NCBI GenBank assembly: GCA_024860865.1
Contig: JACRDV010000066.1
Location: 1-33,018 of the forward strand
Reading direction: 5' to 3'
From: JACRDV01 sp024860865 [NCBI: Methanobacteriota archaeon]
Lineage (GTDB): Archaea; JACRDV01
Length of the DNA: 33,018 bases
The notes below the pieces were generated by a model. That model saw nothing but the letters and a program-made list of their open reading frames with translations. It searched no databases and had not been told where the DNA came from. Below, one piece after another: positions 13,555-20,853 of the stretch (the stretch's first letter is position 1; every line of letters begins with the position of its first letter). A program made the translations under genes and the position numbers.

Positions 13555-14636
13555 GCAGGTTTAGGTTTAAAGTTAGGCTCATGCTCACGAATTTTATCGG
13601 GTAAATATTTCTCGACAACATAGCTTAAGCCGTGACGTGCCAATCCTTGCTGTTCGCTTTTGGCGCCCATTTTCTCCCAAAGTTCAAGTTGTTTTTGCCA
13701 AAACTTACCTTGATATCGAGGATCTTTTTTGAGCTCTTCAATTCTTTTGAAATCTTGGTCGTTAAATTTGTCAGTAGGAAGTTTATATTTGGTTATGTCC
13801 TCAGGGGTAACTCCAATCCAGATAGCATTAGGAGTGGCAAGTTCTTTGTTAACATGAGCAGCTTTCGCTGAACCAGAAATAACGACCATGGCTATAAATG
13901 AACCCCACGGATCTCCATCCGTAAAAACATATACTGGTAATTTTAGTTCCCCATGCAACCTTCTAATCATCCTTCTTGTTGCGCGGCTTGCTTGACCCTT
14001 CAGTCCGACAATCAATGCATCAAATCTTTTGTAGGCTCGCTCTTGAACAAGTCTGTGGTAGTAACCTAAAGTTTCAACAGCAATTAATCGTTTAGCCCCA
14101 CACCTCACAAACTCTATATCATCAACTATTGGGGGGATTGTGTAACCCCCCATCCCCGCTTTCTCAGCATGAATCTCATTACCATCAGGCTCACGAACAA
14201 GCACATCTCCAAAAACTCCGGCCCCTGACTCTTCCGGATAAATTCCGAAGTCCTCACGTTTACAGCCCAACATTACTTCGAGGTCTTCCGCAACCATATC
14301 GCTTTCTTGCTGATCGACAAATTTCCCACAAGGCCAACCTTCTCCATAATAGTACATTTCCCTGAGAGTTGCAAATTGACTTTTCTCAGCTAGCTCTTTT
14401 CCAAAAGTTGCAACACACATGGTCTGAGCAATCTTCTTTACATGAGCTATGTTGCCAGCTGACCTAAGTTTGTATTTATCTCCTAAAACATAACACCTTG
14501 CAACCGGATCATAAACAATATTCGAAGTTATTCTACTAGGCACTTGCAATTTCGGGGGTTCTCCTTTTCTAAGGTAATCAATTATATTTGTACCAAGCAA
14601 TTTCAATTCATTCAACATCTTTGTTTTCTTGTCCAT
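13551..14636 (-). CDS. top6A: DNA topoisomerase VI subunit A
   Basis: The roughly 361-residue protein is the Spo11-like catalytic subunit, which cuts both DNA strands with ATP-driven help from subunit B. The winged-helix (CAP) domain contains the active tyrosine in TLREMYYYGE (Tyr95/Tyr96; the second is expected to be catalytic). The Toprim domain shows the acidic residue in IAVETLGYYHRL and the Mg2+ motif TDGDPWG. I prefer the ATG at 14636, preceded by GGAG at about 8 bases. An upstream in-frame ATG at 14654 would add 6 residues. Either start lies inside the end of top6B (29 or 47 bases overlap), so the two subunits are translationally coupled. Confidence 0.93.
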   Translation of the reverse strand: MDKKTKMLNELKLLGTNIIDYLRKGEPPKLQVPSRITSNIVYDPVARCYVLGDKYKLRSAGNIAHVKKIAQTMCVATFGKELAEKSQFATLREMYYYGEGWPCGKFVDQQESDMVAEDLEVMLGCKREDFGIYPEESGAGVFGDVLVREPDGNEIHAEKAGMGGYTIPPIVDDIEFVRCGAKRLIAVETLGYYHRLVQERAYKRFDALIVGLKGQASRATRRMIRRLHGELKLPVYVFTDGDPWGSFIAMVVISGSAKAAHVNKELATPNAIWIGVTPEDITKYKLPTDKFNDQDFKRIEELKKDPRYQGKFWQKQLELWEKMGAKSEQQGLARHGLSYVVEKYLPDKIREHEPNFKPKPA

Positions 14637-17600
14637 GTGTCTCCATCTCCTCATATTGTTTTACAATTTTTTTAATTATTGGTTTTACATCTGGGACATT
14701 TTTGACCTCAGCAAGTTTTGCAGCCTCATCAGCAATGACTGGCAAATATTTCTCAAAAATATTCATCCTTTCTTCTTCCATATGAGCTCGAACTTTTCGA
14801 GATAAATGGATTTGTAGCTCTCTTGCAACGTCCATTAATGCATTTTTAATCTCATGAAGTATCTCATCTTCAGCCGATACAGCTTGCTTTCCAGCTGAAA
14901 TATATGGAACAAAAGTTGATACAAGATTAACAAAAATACTAATTGGAGCACTTTCGTTGGTCTTAATGCCGTAGCGCTTCCAGTCAATGCTGTTCACAGC
15001 TTCAGTTATTGCACATGCCCCAGCATCAAAAGTTAATGGAACTCTGTTTGCAAATCTCATAATCTCCATTTCTGTTCCATTTTGTGTCTTATGCCCCGCA
15101 TTTCCACCATGAGCTATGCCAGCCTCTATCAAAAATGGGATGCCACCGCGATAGGTCTTAGGTTTGCGCGTACTTGCAGCCACAAACTCTGCATTTAGCA
15201 TCTCTTTTTGGCCTTTTTTAATCACTTCTTCGCCAATTGGTCTCAATCCGTCGCCAGAAGGGGCGATGAATTTAATCCTTTGAAAAGCTTTGATTATTCT
15301 CTCTGCATCTTCCCAATTCAACTGTGTCGGCTCTTTTTCCATATCAACTTTAGAAATTTTGGCTATTTCATAGACTTTGTCACCGGAAATTCTAGAAAAC
15401 TCTTTCATTAAAAATGTTCCAAGCTTATGCGCATTAGTGCGATTTGCAAAATATAGCAAGTCATCAGCAGTTAATCCTCTTGGATGGGGTGAAATCTCCT
15501 CAGGCTGCTCTGGAACTTCTTTTACAAGTCTATCAAATATAATGGGTTCTTTATTATCAGGTTCATAAAAAGTGATTTTTGCATGGGGGTTTGCAATTGC
15601 AGTTTTCTTTATGTATTCAAGTGGTCCTCTTTCGCCCCTAACATATTGCACATCTTTAACTTCTACTTTGACTTGAGTTCCCCTAAATCCCCCCTCCTTT
15701 TGTTCTTGCTCAATTATTCTTCCTTCATTTTTTTCAACATCTACTAAAACTTTAAGTTCATAAACAGTTCCATTACCAGTACCTGTTTTAATATAAGTTG
15801 GTTTGCCGGTAGACATTTGAGAGAAAAGAGTAACTCCAGAATTATGAACAACAACTCCATTTGCAATGAAGTTATGAGAATGATCAATCTCTAAATCATA
15901 TACGTACTCATCATCATTAATAACTTTCTTTATTTCTTTAACTTTTAACCAAATTATATCACTGTTAGCTAGCTTATCTATTTTCAAAATAGGTTCGTTC
16001 AATCCATAGATTCTTTCATGCGATGAAATCGATTTAATTATACTCAACGCGTTTTGTAAAGTACGTCTTGTGATATTGTTTTTTTTAATCGCAGTTTTAA
16101 CATCAGAAGGTATTAACTTACTGGAGATGTTTAAAGTTTTAAAAATCTTATTTACCTGTTCTGAAATATTTGGAATTATATCTGAGCACGTATTGTGTTT
16201 TTTCGTATTTTCTAAATATCTAATGAGCTTAGATTGCTTATAATTTGAAAAACCTATAATTTTGCTGAAAGCCTTAATGTTCGGTTTACCACATATGGCA
16301 AGTACAAATTCCTTTTCCTTTTTCTTGCGGATACTAGGAATTATACCAAACATTAACAAAATTAGTGCAAGTTTTCTAATAACATTTTCATTATGTAAAG
16401 TCAAAACCAACTCTTTCTTATTAACACAGACGGAAGCTTCCGCATCAAATAATCCTCTAACATAGGCTGCTAGTTGGTCGTAGGGAAGTGTTAAAACTAT
16501 ATTTGGAACATCAAAAGAATGAGATTTTGCTCCAGAAGGAACTCCAAAGCAATGTAAGAGGTTTGAAACCATGTTAGAAGAAAAATGTGAACTATAACAT
16601 CCGCTTCCTCTATCATCATAATAAAACCGAGGGGTGGCTGCAAATAATTCTTTAGTAGTATTTTCTATTGTCTTTACAGTACCAAAATCACCATCAGTAA
16701 AAGTGATGTTAGTACCCCATCTTTTGTCGGATTTGCATATGTTACCATCACCTGCTACTGCCCCTGCGAACCAAAGTAGATGGGGATTTGTCCATATTGG
16801 AATATTAAAATAAGTCCCATTTCGACCTATCCTATTTATTTTTTCTAAAATCTCTTCATCATCAAATCCTGCATCTCGAGATAAATTAATCAAACAATTT
16901 ATGGTTGGTCTTCCACGAGGACTGTTGCCATTAATTTTTCTAAGCCAACCCCTTAATCTATCATAATGGATATTATGCTTTCTAGCAATATTTCTTAGGG
17001 AAGTATATTTTTTCTTTAAATTTGCGATGATTTTTAGTACAAATTCTTGATTGTCAACTTGATATTTATTCCAGTTGAATAATGAAATCACAGAGATTTT
17101 CTGGTTTTCATTTTGACGGGGAAGTTTTCTTACAGTTGCAATATAATCGTCTTGCTTTAATTCCTCAGCAGTTATCCACGTTGGTACTCCATTACGCAAT
17201 ACTAAGGTAGGATTATCAGGAGTAAGTTTGATTTCTCTTCCAAGAATAGTTTTAATTTTAATTAAATTTTTATTTTTAATTTTCCAACAGTTAACTATCG
17301 GCTTATGTTCTAACTTCAAAGTATCTAAGTTTAATGCAAATACCTTTTCTCCTATTTTATTATTGTTAACGATTTCTTTTATAGGTAAGATTGAGCCATT
17401 AGCTAAAGGTATTAAAGTATCTCCTGTCATGCAGGCGCCGATCCCCTGCTGTCCACGCATTTGCATTGATCGATGGAATTTTGTCCCAGCCAACATCTTC
17501 CCAAAAACTTTAGGAATAAAAACAAGTGGAATGCCTGGACCATTATCATCAACGATTACCTTATAATGTTCTTTCTCAACTTCCCACCAAGTCTTTAGCA

Positions 17601-17961
17601 TCTCAACTTTATCTGGATCAACTTCTTTTTTGCTTTCATCAATTTTAATTCCAAATTCGCGTGCTTGTTCAATGTTCATGTTTAGTGCTTCACGAATCTC
17701 ACTTGGGCTGAAAACTCTGTTTCGAATGGCTGTTGTTTCAAAAACTTTCTCGATCTTCACTTTAACATCCGGCAGAATACCTGCTTCCTCGCAGGCATCC
17801 AAGCTATTGCTAACTAATTCATGCACAATCGTCGTCATTGAGCGCAGCTTACCGGAATAGCCTAAATGCTGCCTATTTTTTCTGAAAAATTCAGCTAGAG
17901 AGACCTCTTTGAATTCTCTAAACAAAGTATCAGCTGAAAGTGTTTGACTTTCCAAGAACAT
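14608..17961 (-). CDS. top6B: DNA topoisomerase VI subunit B with in-frame intein
   Basis: The 1117-residue precursor is a GHKL ATPase subunit interrupted by a 531-residue intein (residues 177-707). The N-extein has the Bergerat ATP site: HELVSNSLDACEEAG (N box, 48-62) and VIVDDNGPGIP (G1 box, 135-145). MRGQQGIGA (G2, the ATP lid) stops exactly at the intein, and the C-extein resumes SGVTLFSQMSTGKP. The rest holds the H2TH region, the transducer domain (NANPHAKITF) with its switch Lys motif region, and a helical C-terminus. The spliced product is about 586 residues, normal for the family. A GGAGG site sits 5 bases before the ATG. Splicing must occur before the subunit can bind ATP properly. 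Confidence 0.92.
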   Translation of the reverse strand: MFLESQTLSADTLFREFKEVSLAEFFRKNRQHLGYSGKLRSMTTIVHELVSNSLDACEEAGILPDVKVKIEKVFETTAIRNRVFSPSEIREALNMNIEQAREFGIKIDESKKEVDPDKVEMLKTWWEVEKEHYKVIVDDNGPGIPLVFIPKVFGKMLAGTKFHRSMQMRGQQGIGACMTGDTLIPLANGSILPIKEIVNNNKIGEKVFALNLDTLKLEHKPIVNCWKIKNKNLIKIKTILGREIKLTPDNPTLVLRNGVPTWITAEELKQDDYIATVRKLPRQNENQKISVISLFNWNKYQVDNQEFVLKIIANLKKKYTSLRNIARKHNIHYDRLRGWLRKINGNSPRGRPTINCLINLSRDAGFDDEEILEKINRIGRNGTYFNIPIWTNPHLLWFAGAVAGDGNICKSDKRWGTNITFTDGDFGTVKTIENTTKELFAATPRFYYDDRGSGCYSSHFSSNMVSNLLHCFGVPSGAKSHSFDVPNIVLTLPYDQLAAYVRGLFDAEASVCVNKKELVLTLHNENVIRKLALILLMFGIIPSIRKKKEKEFVLAICGKPNIKAFSKIIGFSNYKQSKLIRYLENTKKHNTCSDIIPNISEQVNKIFKTLNISSKLIPSDVKTAIKKNNITRRTLQNALSIIKSISSHERIYGLNEPILKIDKLANSDIIWLKVKEIKKVINDDEYVYDLEIDHSHNFIANGVVVHNSGVTLFSQMSTGKPTYIKTGTGNGTVYELKVLVDVEKNEGRIIEQEQKEGGFRGTQVKVEVKDVQYVRGERGPLEYIKKTAIANPHAKITFYEPDNKEPIIFDRLVKEVPEQPEEISPHPRGLTADDLLYFANRTNAHKLGTFLMKEFSRISGDKVYEIAKISKVDMEKEPTQLNWEDAERIIKAFQRIKFIAPSGDGLRPIGEEVIKKGQKEMLNAEFVAASTRKPKTYRGGIPFLIEAGIAHGGNAGHKTQNGTEMEIMRFANRVPLTFDAGACAITEAVNSIDWKRYGIKTNESAPISIFVNLVSTFVPYISAGKQAVSAEDEILHEIKNALMDVARELQIHLSRKVRAHMEEERMNIFEKYLPVIADEAAKLAEVKNVPDVKPIIKKIVKQYEEMETHGQENKDVE
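15841..17433 (-). mobile_element. Intein with LAGLIDADG homing endonuclease in top6B
   Basis: The intein begins with Cys1 (CMTGDTLIPLANGS, block A) and ends with EIDHSHNFIANGVVVHN before Ser+1 (blocks F and G; penultimate His and terminal Asn present). Two LAGLIDADG-type motifs are visible, LWFAGAVAGDGNI near precursor residue 397 and AAYVRGLFDAEASV near 498, with the acidic residues kept. A helix-turn-helix-like segment (SLRNIARKHNIHYDRLRGWL) precedes them. Block B reads LTPDNPTLV, so the usual TxxH histidine is Asn (precursor residue 250). Splicing chemistry otherwise appears intact. The insertion point is the ATP-lid motif of Top6B, a conserved site typical of homing. Confidence 0.9.
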
Positions 17962-18120: not shown

Positions 18121-18684
18121 TTAAACTGGCTTCCAAATCTCTGTAGCCTTCTTTTTAAGCTCATCTCTTTTTCTTTCAAGGAATTTGTAGACAGATCCAT
18201 GTGTTGACCCTGTCAACAACATCCTCAAAGCCTCTCTAGTCACATCAATCTGCTCAAAAGTACCAATCATTCCAATTGTTTTTCCGTAAACTGAAATTGA
18301 AGCGCCAGTTAATTGTTCAATGGTTTTCCTAGTTTTTCCTTCTTCTCCAATTACTCTCCCCTTGTATCTTTTTAGCGCTTTTTCAGACTCTCCAACAAAA
18401 TCTGTTAAATCTAAGACTTCAAGGGCATATTCTTCATCAAGCAGTTTAAAAGCTCGTTGAGGGTTAAATCCTCTGCCAATCGCCTGAATAATATCCTTTG
18501 CTCTCAAAAGTAACAAGGGATCTTTTGCATCATTAACTAATTCAATAGTTACTTCCCCTGTTTGGGAGTCAACTTCAATTTCGGTATGGGTAGCCGTCTC
18601 GATTTCCTTTTTAATTTTGCCATTCTCCCCCAAAACTACCCCAATTCTATCCATAGGTATCCGCAGATATTCTCTAGCTTCCAA
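18121..18684 (-). CDS. Two-KH-domain RNA-binding protein, archaeal Dim2/Pno1 homologue
   Basis: The 187-residue protein has KH1 with VVLGENGKIKKEIE (about 17-30) and KH2 with VIGEEGKTRKTIEQLTG (111-127), plus the family end HGSVYKFLERKRDELKKK. Archaeal Dim2 binds the 3' end region of pre-16S rRNA and works with late small-subunit maturation factors. It starts 11 bases inside the end of rio1 (18674-18684), consistent with co-translation of two 30S maturation proteins. A spacer of about 160 bases follows before top6B. The family is confident; partners are inferred from homologues. Confidence 0.88.
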   Translation of the reverse strand: MEAREYLRIPMDRIGVVLGENGKIKKEIETATHTEIEVDSQTGEVTIELVNDAKDPLLLLRAKDIIQAIGRGFNPQRAFKLLDEEYALEVLDLTDFVGESEKALKRYKGRVIGEEGKTRKTIEQLTGASISVYGKTIGMIGTFEQIDVTREALRMLLTGSTHGSVYKFLERKRDELKKKATEIWKPV

Positions 18685-19462
18685 CTTTCTCCCCTCTGAT
18701 TTTTCTAAGAGCTTCTTTTTCGTCTGGTACTGAAATTCTTAATTTGTCTCTAAAATATCTTAAAATATTTCGTACATCGCGCTCAAGAAAACTTTCAGCC
18801 ATGGGATGCTCAATTGTTACTGCTTGACCCCAATCAATTAATATTGGTTTATCATTGAACATCAGTACATTATACTCGCTAATATCAGCATGGACTAGCT
18901 CAGCATTAACATAGAGTTTTTTAATAAATTTAAGCAATAAATCTAAAACTTTCTCTGGATTTTCTGGAGGAGAATCTTTCATAAGTGGAGCAGCATTTCC
19001 CTTTTTATCGCCAATGAATTGCATGACCAAAACGTTATTAAGCACAACAAAAGGTTTGGGAGCATAAACTCTGACTTCAGCTGCTTTTTCCAAATTTCTG
19101 AATTCTTTTTTAGCCCAAGTATACACTATATGTCTATGATCTTTTTTAGTTCCAGTAAAGCGTGGATCACCACTTATATATTGCCACATTGTGCGAAAGT
19201 CTGATGTTGCAATTCGATAAATTTTTAAAGCAATTATGTTGTCGCTTTTATAGGCCCGAAAAATATTTGCTTCTTTTCCCGTGCTCACAGGACCATTAAC
19301 AGTATCGATCACTCCTCTATTGGCTAAATCATAAAGAGTTAAAAGAGTTGACTTATCAAAAACTTCACTGCAAACTTTTCGATCCTCATCCGTCTTAAAA
19401 ACTTTTTCAGGCTTTGTAATTTTTCGCTCTAATTTTCTCTCAATCCGTTCAAACCTTGACAA
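18674..19462 (-). CDS. rio1: RIO1-type serine/threonine kinase/ATPase
   Basis: The 262-residue protein shows the RIO1 fold: nucleotide loop STGKEANIF, catalytic lysine in IALKIYR, flexible-loop region, catalytic HADISEYNVL and metal-binding ILIDWGQAV. Family members act as ATPases in late 40S/30S assembly and rRNA processing. The N-terminus is short and basic, as in other archaeal RIO1. Its start is 6 bases after the aIF1A stop, and its end overlaps the Dim2 gene, so the run aIF1A-rio1-dim2 is a translation and ribosome-maturation operon. Confidence 0.93.
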   Translation of the reverse strand: MSRFERIERKLERKITKPEKVFKTDEDRKVCSEVFDKSTLLTLYDLANRGVIDTVNGPVSTGKEANIFRAYKSDNIIALKIYRIATSDFRTMWQYISGDPRFTGTKKDHRHIVYTWAKKEFRNLEKAAEVRVYAPKPFVVLNNVLVMQFIGDKKGNAAPLMKDSPPENPEKVLDLLLKFIKKLYVNAELVHADISEYNVLMFNDKPILIDWGQAVTIEHPMAESFLERDVRNILRYFRDKLRISVPDEKEALRKIRGEKVGS

Positions 19463-19468
19463 ACTGAC

Positions 19469-19780
19469 CTACCTATAACTAGAGAAACGATGATATCCTT
19501 GTTTCCTGAGCCAATCTGACTGCCCTCTTGTATATCGCCAAATTACATCTGCGCGGTCAGCCTGAAATGACCATGGTACAACCAAAACCAGATCCCCTGC
19601 ACGGATCCAAATTCTCTTACGAATTTTTCCGGGAATTCGGCAAACTCTTACTTTACTATCTATGCAACGGACATTTATGTGATTAGCACCAAGCATTTGT
19701 TCTACAATTCCAAGAAGTTCCCCTTCCTTAGGGATTTTTACTTTTTCAATTTTCTCTTGGACTGGTTTCTTTTTTTGCAG
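19469..19780 (-). CDS. eif1A: Translation initiation factor aIF1A, probable CTG start
   Basis: The OB-fold protein contains the family core VKIPKEGELLGIVEQMLGAN, VRVCRIPGKIRKRIWIRAGD and DVIWRYTRGQSDWLR. An ATG at 19696 would delete the basic tail and the first OB strand. Between that ATG and the in-frame stop at 19808-19810 there is no ATG, GTG or TTG. CTG at 19780-19778 gives 102 residues beginning (M)QKKKPVQEKIEKVKIPKEGE, exactly the expected aIF1A start. GAGG lies 8 bases before it, inside the end of tyrS. An ATT farther in is a weaker alternative. aIF1A promotes start-site selection on the 30S subunit, so an inefficient start codon in its own gene could be autoregulatory. Confidence 0.88.
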   Translation of the reverse strand: MQKKKPVQEKIEKVKIPKEGELLGIVEQMLGANHINVRCIDSKVRVCRIPGKIRKRIWIRAGDLVLVVPWSFQADRADVIWRYTRGQSDWLRKQGYHRFSSYR

Positions 19781-19791
19781 GTTGTTTCCCT

Positions 19792-20853
19792 CTAAGCTTT
19801 TAGAATTTCAAGCAACTCAGGTTTTTGTTCAAAGTACTTGCGAACTGGAGCTAGCAACCTAATAAGGTTTTCTGAAACTGCGTTTTTAAGGTCTAAAGGA
19901 TGCAGCCCGCCTTCCCGATAAATTTTCTCAAGTTCAGCATAAGATTGTAATTCTAACGGGCCACCGTACTTTGATTCCCTCTCGATTCGAAAAATTCCGT
20001 CATTTCTAAATATAATATATTTGCAAATCTCAAGGACTGGATTAAATTCGATTTGTTTTTCTGGACAAAATGCTTTAGAAATTTTCTGTTGAATTGCTTC
20101 AGGAGAATCGTGCACACAAACAAAAGTCTCAGGCCTACTCTTTGACATCTTGGAGCTAATTATTGTGTCTAACTTTTCATCTTCGTCTAATCCCATCTTT
20201 TGTATACCGCTTAGCCCCATTAGAAGAGAGGTATGAACGGCAATTGGTTTTTGATAACCTAATTTATCGGCAACCTCTCTTGCTAGTATATGTGCCTTGC
20301 GCTGGTCCATTCCTCCATATGCAACATCCACGCCCAACAAAAATATATCTGTAACTTGCATTGGAGGGTAAATCAGCAAAGAGGCTTTAAGATTTTCATC
20401 TAAAATAGACCTGCCCATAATTGTTAAACTTCGCCGCAAACGGGCTAAGCTAACTTGATCTGCAATTTTTAGAACATTTTCCCAATAGCCCGCCTTCTGG
20501 ACGAGCTCAGATGCGAACATAAATTTTGTTCTCTTCGGATCAACCCCCAATGCCAAAAAACAATGCTTAAAATATTCGCCTACTTTTTGGATTTTGTCGA
20601 GGTCTCCGCCCATCTTCTCATTTATCCATGCATGAAGGTCTGCCAACAAAACTATGAAGTCAAATCCCACATCTGTAAAATCTTTAATTTTATTTACTGT
20701 CATTACCCAGCCTATATGTATAAGACCTGAAGGTTCGTAACCCTGATATGCTAGCAACCTATCTTTTGTTTCTAAGCGCTCGCGTAGCTCATTTAATGTG
20801 ATTATCTCCTCAGTTCCGCGAGAAATTAGATGGAGTCTTTTTTCAATATCCAT
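19792..20853 (-). CDS. tyrS: Tyrosyl-tRNA synthetase
   Basis: The 353-residue class I synthetase follows the archaeal/eukaryotic TyrRS plan: GYEPSGLIHIGW (HIGH-type motif with Trp as fourth residue, 46-49), FIVLLADLHAWIN, YPPMQVTDIFLLGVDVAYGGMDQRK, and SSKMSKSRPE as the KMSKS loop, with HPLDLKNAV near the end. It charges tRNA-Tyr. The frame is open upstream to 20904, but the extra residues are unlike the family and overlap gfcR. The ATG at 20853 gives the normal N-terminus and leaves 19 bases after gfcR. Its last codons contain the Shine-Dalgarno site of aIF1A, so the genes are tightly packed in one operon. Confidence 0.92.
   Translation of the reverse strand: MDIEKRLHLISRGTEEIITLNELRERLETKDRLLAYQGYEPSGLIHIGWVMTVNKIKDFTDVGFDFIVLLADLHAWINEKMGGDLDKIQKVGEYFKHCFLALGVDPKRTKFMFASELVQKAGYWENVLKIADQVSLARLRRSLTIMGRSILDENLKASLLIYPPMQVTDIFLLGVDVAYGGMDQRKAHILAREVADKLGYQKPIAVHTSLLMGLSGIQKMGLDEDEKLDTIISSKMSKSRPETFVCVHDSPEAIQQKISKAFCPEKQIEFNPVLEICKYIIFRNDGIFRIERESKYGGPLELQSYAELEKIYREGGLHPLDLKNAVSENLIRLLAPVRKYFEQKPELLEILKA

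Follow-up and report, generated by a model that had tools for sequence, protein, structure and literature searches.

A predicted CTG start codon for an archaeal aIF1A gene and the recurrence of weak aIF1A starts across archaea

The stretch of DNA analysed here (the window) is positions 1 to 33,018 of contig JACRDV010000066.1 from assembly GCA_024860865.1, a Methanobacteriota archaeon referred to below as G000, and the gene in question is that of translation initiation factor 1A (aIF1A) on the minus strand. This gene very probably starts at a CTG codon (19778..19780), a prediction based on the lack of any standard start upstream, on the spacing of a Shine-Dalgarno (SD) motif and on the occurrence of CTG at the same site in other archaea. 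Initiation at this CTG would be with methionine. The window gene is one predicted case of a recurrent archaeal feature, in which aIF1A carries a weak start (CTG, TTG and rarely a codon resembling ATT, ATC or ATA), usually with a good SD. The explanation as a whole, which joins the CTG start, the recurrence of weak aIF1A starts and their use in feedback, we consider modestly probable.

Read from the CTG, the predicted coding sequence occupies 19469..19780 on the minus strand (103 codons and a stop), within an open frame spanning 19469-19807. The frame was identified as aIF1A by NCBIfam NF003084 (138 bits, cut-off 91) and TIGR00523 (127.6 bits, cut-off 102.9). An in-frame TGA (19808..19810) closes it upstream and is followed by AAT TCT AAA AGC TTA GAG GGA AAC AAC and then by the CTG; from there the frame continues with CAA AAA AAG and, further on, reaches GAA CAA ATG, the last of these (19694..19696) being its first standard start. 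Codon-by-codon reading confirmed the statement of the first-pass annotation that no ATG, GTG or TTG occurs between the TGA and this ATG, and the SD motif GAGG (19789..19792) was likewise found 8 bases ahead of the CTG, its first base being the last base of the stop codon of the upstream tyrosyl-tRNA synthetase gene (tyrS). The other two frames, read by eye from the tyrS stop to a run of seven A past the CTG, contained no ATG, GTG or TTG. The solved factor 1A 1jt8 aligned from frame residue 17 (E 6.5e-31) and the ATG is frame residue 38, so a start at the ATG would remove the first 21 aligned residues, IPKEGELLGIVEQ among them. By this sequence alignment the OB fold is complete, its first strand included, only if the start precedes the ATG, as had been argued from the window alone, and the downstream ATG was rejected as a start since it lies inside the conserved fold.

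Start usage elsewhere in G000 was examined in a sample of 137,199 bases containing 148 non-overlapping open reading frames (ORFs) of at least 100 codons. No match to 16S ribosomal RNA was found in this assembly from which to take the anti-SD, and SD matches were therefore scored against the archaeal consensus AGGAGGTGATCC rather than against the genome's own sequence. The aligned SD distance had its mode at 13-14 (38 of 48 sites with an SD match of at least 5), and that of the aIF1A CTG is 14. In 19 of the 148 ORFs the first standard start lay more than 20 codons past the upstream stop, and aIF1A was the sole one of these with an SD-spaced CTG near its N-terminus.

The survey across archaea covered 207 distinct aIF1A loci from 200 genomes or records (L037, L043, L065 and L033 were repeats; L033 was excluded here but counted in a 208-locus set used below). 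A mechanical rule took as the start the NTG codon (ATG, GTG, TTG or CTG) with the longest SD match at an aligned distance of 11-15, with ATG winning ties; where there was no SD match, CTG was called solely when no standard codon existed. We termed a locus "hard" when the stretch between the in-frame stop and a point six codons short of the OB fold held no ATG, GTG or TTG. Domain-wide, 7 aIF1A calls (six of them changed) and 11 calls for the partner factor aIF1 were checked by hand, as were 17 loci for the tree described below; for example, L124 was changed from CTG to ATG, L126 and L374 were left undecided, and L038 and L368 were changed to CTG. Hard loci made up 64 of the 207, and CTG was called in 62 of them, from 61 genomes; the other two were L123, which looks like ATT, and L374, which runs off the end of its contig.

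The domain-wide set comprised 101 genomes, 99 of which contained aIF1A, and all 101 matches were read. Mechanical calling gave 51 ATG, 31 TTG, 10 CTG, 8 GTG and one without a call, and hand correction of the six altered these to 52 ATG, 33 TTG, 8 CTG, 6 GTG, one ATT and one undecided. Seven of the 101 loci were hard (six CTG and the ATT-like L123). Two classes were dominated by CTG. The first is the class of G007, which we take to be Archaeoglobi (presumably including Archaeoglobus veneficus, A. sulfaticallidus, Geoglobus ahangari and G. acetivorans, the two Geoglobus with TTG), where aIF1A was present in 53 of 59 genomes and all 54 loci were read: 32 CTG (27 hard), 15 TTG, 5 ATG, one GTG and one without a call. 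Its start sites, by genus, were GGTGTCnnnCTG, GGTGATnnCTG and similar. Family f8 was mainly CTG, with TTG in some genera; within the class four genera had TTG (g81, g71, g84, g86), g80 had one ATG and one CTG locus, and g85 had ATG in four of five loci, the fifth running off its contig. Two loci called GTG (L038) and TTG (L368) also carry CTG at the usual distance and were taken as CTG for the tree.

The second is the class of G029, which we assume to be Methanosarcinia (with Methanosalsum zhilinae, Methanohalophilus mahii and Methanosarcina acetivorans among its presumed members). aIF1A was found in 140 of its 149 genomes, and the 50 loci read, from 46 genomes, consisted of the 30 best-scoring and 20 picked from family f27; 46 of these were CTG (31 hard), two TTG and two ATG. 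Many genomes of family f27 had two to five matches to the eIF-1a family, and for five of these genomes two copies each were read, nine of the ten being called CTG. In each of the classes of G020 and G025 30 loci were read (30 of 35 matches; 40 genomes with a match). The class of G025 had 13 TTG and two CTG, both of the latter with standard codons also upstream, while two of its loci without NTG appeared by manual reading to use ATC (L435) and ATA (L454) behind an SD-like stretch. Six further loci gave five ATG and one GTG.

Does the site behave as a start codon rather than as a conserved leucine? In a blind test we noted which codon stood in frame at a set distance from the best SD, whether NTG or not, using the 120 of 208 loci with an SD match of at least 6. 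This codon was CTG in 45, TTG in 20, ATG in 14, GTG in 2 and another codon in 39; of the 30 non-NTG cases printed, 22 traced to SD-like stretches either upstream outside the frame or in coding sequence immediately ahead of the fold. The codons on either side were NTG in 3 and 4 of the 120. Where a leucine codon stood at the site, it was CTG or TTG in 65 of 66 cases, versus 220 of 667 leucine codons in the bodies of the same genes (binomial p 2e-30, ignoring relatedness), and the site thus varies among CTG, TTG, ATG and GTG, not among leucine codons. An alanine or serine codon directly followed the CTG in 49 of 87 loci. The blind test was informative for aIF1A alone, as NTG was recovered at just 5 of 52 aIF1, 9 of 23 uL14 and 7 of 12 aIF2-beta sites (one of the last being CTG). 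With CTG at the same place and an SD at fixed spacing predominating in two classes, the CTG start put forward in the first-pass annotation is strongly supported, and from these sequence patterns aIF1A in the CTG lineages very probably keeps a selected weak start.

The specificity of this pattern was assessed with other genes in a set of 30 genomes, picked so that CTG cases were among them. In these aIF1A had 11 ATG, 9 CTG, 8 TTG, one GTG and one without a call, while uL14 had 27 ATG, 2 GTG and one TTG, and aIF2-beta (29 genomes, missing in G073) had 26 ATG, 2 GTG and one TTG. CTG was thus called in 9 of 30 aIF1A loci versus none of 59 for uL14 and aIF2-beta combined (Fisher 2e-5). aIF1 in the same 30 genomes had 23 ATG, 3 CTG, 2 GTG and two without a call. 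RIO1, often the gene after aIF1A, was called mechanically in 129 loci (99 ATG, 18 TTG, 7 CTG, 4 GTG, one without a call) and had no hard CTG in any of them, though hard cases are less to be expected there given its longer N-terminal region; its 7 CTG calls were soft, with standard codons available in all. Among the five genes examined, hard CTG was seen solely in aIF1A and aIF1.

For aIF1 itself, all 100 domain-wide genomes with a match were read, one locus each: 80 ATG, 7 GTG, 3 TTG, 3 CTG and 7 without a call. The three CTG loci (in G099, G036 and G026) were all hard. Among those without a call, manual reading gave an ATC-like start for L328 and, doubtfully, ATT for L346; the other five were truncated or had an N-terminus too short for the rule. 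In the class of G036, aIF1 was present in 26 of 27 genomes and CTG stood at the family position in 17 of the 26, with 8 ATG and one GTG. Fourteen of the 17 were hard; in the other three the call was a GTG immediately ahead of the conserved cysteines, and CTG stands three codons before it. All 17 belonged to family f30 (17 of its 21 loci: L389, L390, L395-L407, L159 and L170), and most carried GGAGGTG upstream at a spacing longer than the rule accepts, so that 11 of the 14 hard loci counted as lacking an SD. The five domain-wide genomes with CTG, ATC or possible ATT at aIF1 all had ATG at aIF1A (p 0.038 by a simple post hoc count in which two of the five genomes are of one family and two of the codons were read manually), and a split in which one partner is weak while the other has ATG is suggestive only. 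One further genome had TTG at both.

A proposed model for the use of such a start involves three steps. GAGG would place the ribosome at the CTG; aIF1A together with aIF1 would lower the tolerance of the pre-initiation complex for weak start codons; and the aIF1A messenger RNA would then be initiated poorly when the factor is plentiful and better when it is scarce. The weak codon, the good SD and the occurrence of hard CTG, among the genes examined, in start-inspecting factors alone fit feedback of this kind, most simply through aIF1A acting with aIF1. In support, PMC6237735 describes aIF1 in Sulfolobus as favouring discrimination against non-canonical starts and P. abyssi aIF1A as reinforcing the dynamic complex when aIF1 is present. 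A poor start context lets eIF1 hold down its own synthesis (PMC5756025), and an AUU start does the same for IF3 (PMC9410913). Support for the autoregulation proposed in the first-pass annotation is indirect. That negative feedback on start stringency is the purpose of the weak aIF1A start, as the analogy would suggest, falls just short of an even chance; we lowered our estimate from even because what is published on the action of aIF1A and eIF1A is mixed. More tentatively, and a step further below even, the data may reflect an old archaeal feedback circuit in which aIF1A and aIF1 are both read from weak codons (CUG, UUG and rarely AUU, AUC or AUA), with one partner carrying a very weak start in each lineage.

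Several observations weigh against this interpretation, in whole or in part. P. abyssi aIF1A without aIF1 stabilises transfer RNA binding (PMC6237735) and the tail of eIF1A in yeast acts in favour of suboptimal sites (PMC5756025), and because factor 1A effects are mixed in this way more aIF1A by itself would not necessarily mean higher stringency. The SD match of the window gene is just 4 bases. Across the domain aIF1A most often starts with ATG (52 of 101), and CTG was found in a single one of the 30 loci read in the class of G020, that of G020 itself. TTG is an everyday start in G000 (19 of 48 strong-SD sites by the mechanical caller, with ATG in 23), weak starts as such also occur outside aIF1A, RIO1 having 18 TTG and 7 soft CTG calls among its 129 loci, aIF2-beta had no CTG in 29 genomes, and the comparison covers just four other genes. 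Loci within a class are kin, and the p-values above therefore overstate independence. The tree of 262 loci was poorly resolved, requiring at least 12 changes between CTG and other codons, a figure without a shuffled control. Lastly, the five best domain-wide matches after the window gene itself, all of family f10, had four ATG (one perhaps TTG), one GTG and no CTG.

This last point bears on the first-pass annotation, which had named an ordinary start codon at this position in close relatives as a finding that would count against the CTG. G000 was the sole genome of its phylum in the comparison, so that relatives were taken from across archaea and the answer was mixed: the rows nearest by tree path, families f55 and f54 in the class of G007, had CTG in five of five loci, and the best by score (f10) had none. 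No supported set in the tree held the window gene.

A weak start may also simply fix a low level of aIF1A with no feedback, a reading that we regard as doubtful but of real weight. All of the sequence evidence is compatible with it, and GTG and TTG starts are expected to lower translation (PMC6237735). A weaker SD would suffice for this purpose, however, yet the CTG loci carry the longest SD matches (median 6 versus 4 at ATG loci, a difference that is partly built in, the caller needing an SD to prefer CTG over a standard codon), and the other start-inspecting factor, aIF1, is affected in other lineages.

Translational coupling with tyrS, which would relax the need for a good start codon, is an unlikely explanation. 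tyrS ends 11 bases ahead of aIF1A in the window and lies close upstream in 45 of the 54 loci of the class of G007, and ten CTG loci (L044, L045, L047-L050, L052, L054, L057 and L059) overlap tyrS by four bases (CTGA). All 15 TTG and 5 ATG loci of that class likewise follow tyrS, however, and in the class of G029 43 of 50 loci had no co-directional ORF of at least 80 codons ending nearby upstream, yet 46 of the 50 were CTG; coupling is therefore not the general reason for CTG.

It is very improbable that a sequencing or assembly error hides a true ATG, GTG or TTG. The genome is in 160 contigs and is the single representative of its phylum in the comparison, and an insertion or deletion could bring into play an out-of-frame TTG downstream of the CTG (19749-19747). 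This TTG would be usable only given such an error between it and the fold, would shorten the N-terminus and has no SD match of 4, whereas the CTG has an SD at the right distance and CTG at the same site is usual in two classes, all five loci of f54 and f55 included. Equally improbable is that CTG serves as a general start codon in these genomes. CTG was called at 2 of the 48 strong-SD sites in G000 and in the 7 soft RIO1 cases, but uL14, aIF2-beta and aIF1, checked in eight genomes from the two CTG-dominated classes (seven with CTG at aIF1A, one of these by hand, and one with TTG), started at ATG in 23 of 24 cases and at GTG in the other. Least probable of all is that translation begins, as it does in infC, at a codon outside the NTG set, such as the in-frame ATT (19750-19748). 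L123, L435 and L454 seem by manual reading to use ATT, ATC or ATA, but the window ATT has no SD and relatives keep NTG at the CTG position.

The predicted CTG start lies in a minus-strand gene order of tyrS, aIF1A, RIO1 and a KH-domain protein. tyrS (19792..20853; NF006330, 459.4 bits) starts at an ATG at 20853. RIO1 kinase (18674..19462; NF041310, 239.9 bits, below the cut-off of 480) is next in the operon with a TTG start, and the KH-domain protein (arCOG04150; 18121..18684; TIGR03665, 229.1 bits; NF010327, 250.9 bits) overlaps RIO1 and has a TTG start according to the ORF list. Both of these operon genes thus also appear to use TTG. Elsewhere in the window, topoisomerase VI subunit B (14608-17961, minus strand) is apparently split by an intein carrying a LAGLIDADG homing-endonuclease domain (PF14890, PF14528).

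No report of CUG as the start of an archaeal aIF1A or aIF1 gene was found among the titles and abstract openings listed by searches of one open-access library, a scope that leaves subscription papers and database annotations outside, and the term CUG was absent from PMC7531240 and PMC6412873. If the CTG start and its feedback use are both real, CUG would be a physiological start for a core archaeal gene in two whole classes, and culturable methanogens would offer a natural reporter for measuring start fidelity in archaea. The N-termini of aIF1A may also be mis-annotated where gene finders accept ATG, GTG and TTG alone. Each of the three domains would then control start stringency through a factor's own start, using codons and proteins that differ, with archaea adding a third case, in a third domain, beside infC and eIF1.

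The comparison with these systems shows likeness as well as difference. infC encodes IF3, likewise a start-inspecting factor whose gene has a weak start codon through which it feeds back on its own synthesis (PMC9410913); its codon is AUU versus CUG here, IF3 is likened to eIF1 and aIF1 and not to aIF1A, and feedback for aIF1A is proposed. eIF1 (SUI1) is likewise a start-selection factor of the same core complex with a weak start of its own (PMC5756025), but this weakness lies in poor AUG context versus a non-AUG codon in aIF1A, and autoregulation is described there for eIF1, not eIF1A. The four-base tyrS-aIF1A overlap of ten CTG loci resembles the ATGA-type stop-start overlaps of PMC6728339 but is of the form CTGA, and the two genes of the window do not overlap. 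Archaeal aIF1A genes with an ordinary start, such as the 52 of 101 domain-wide with ATG, encode the same protein family and differ from the window gene in the start codon.
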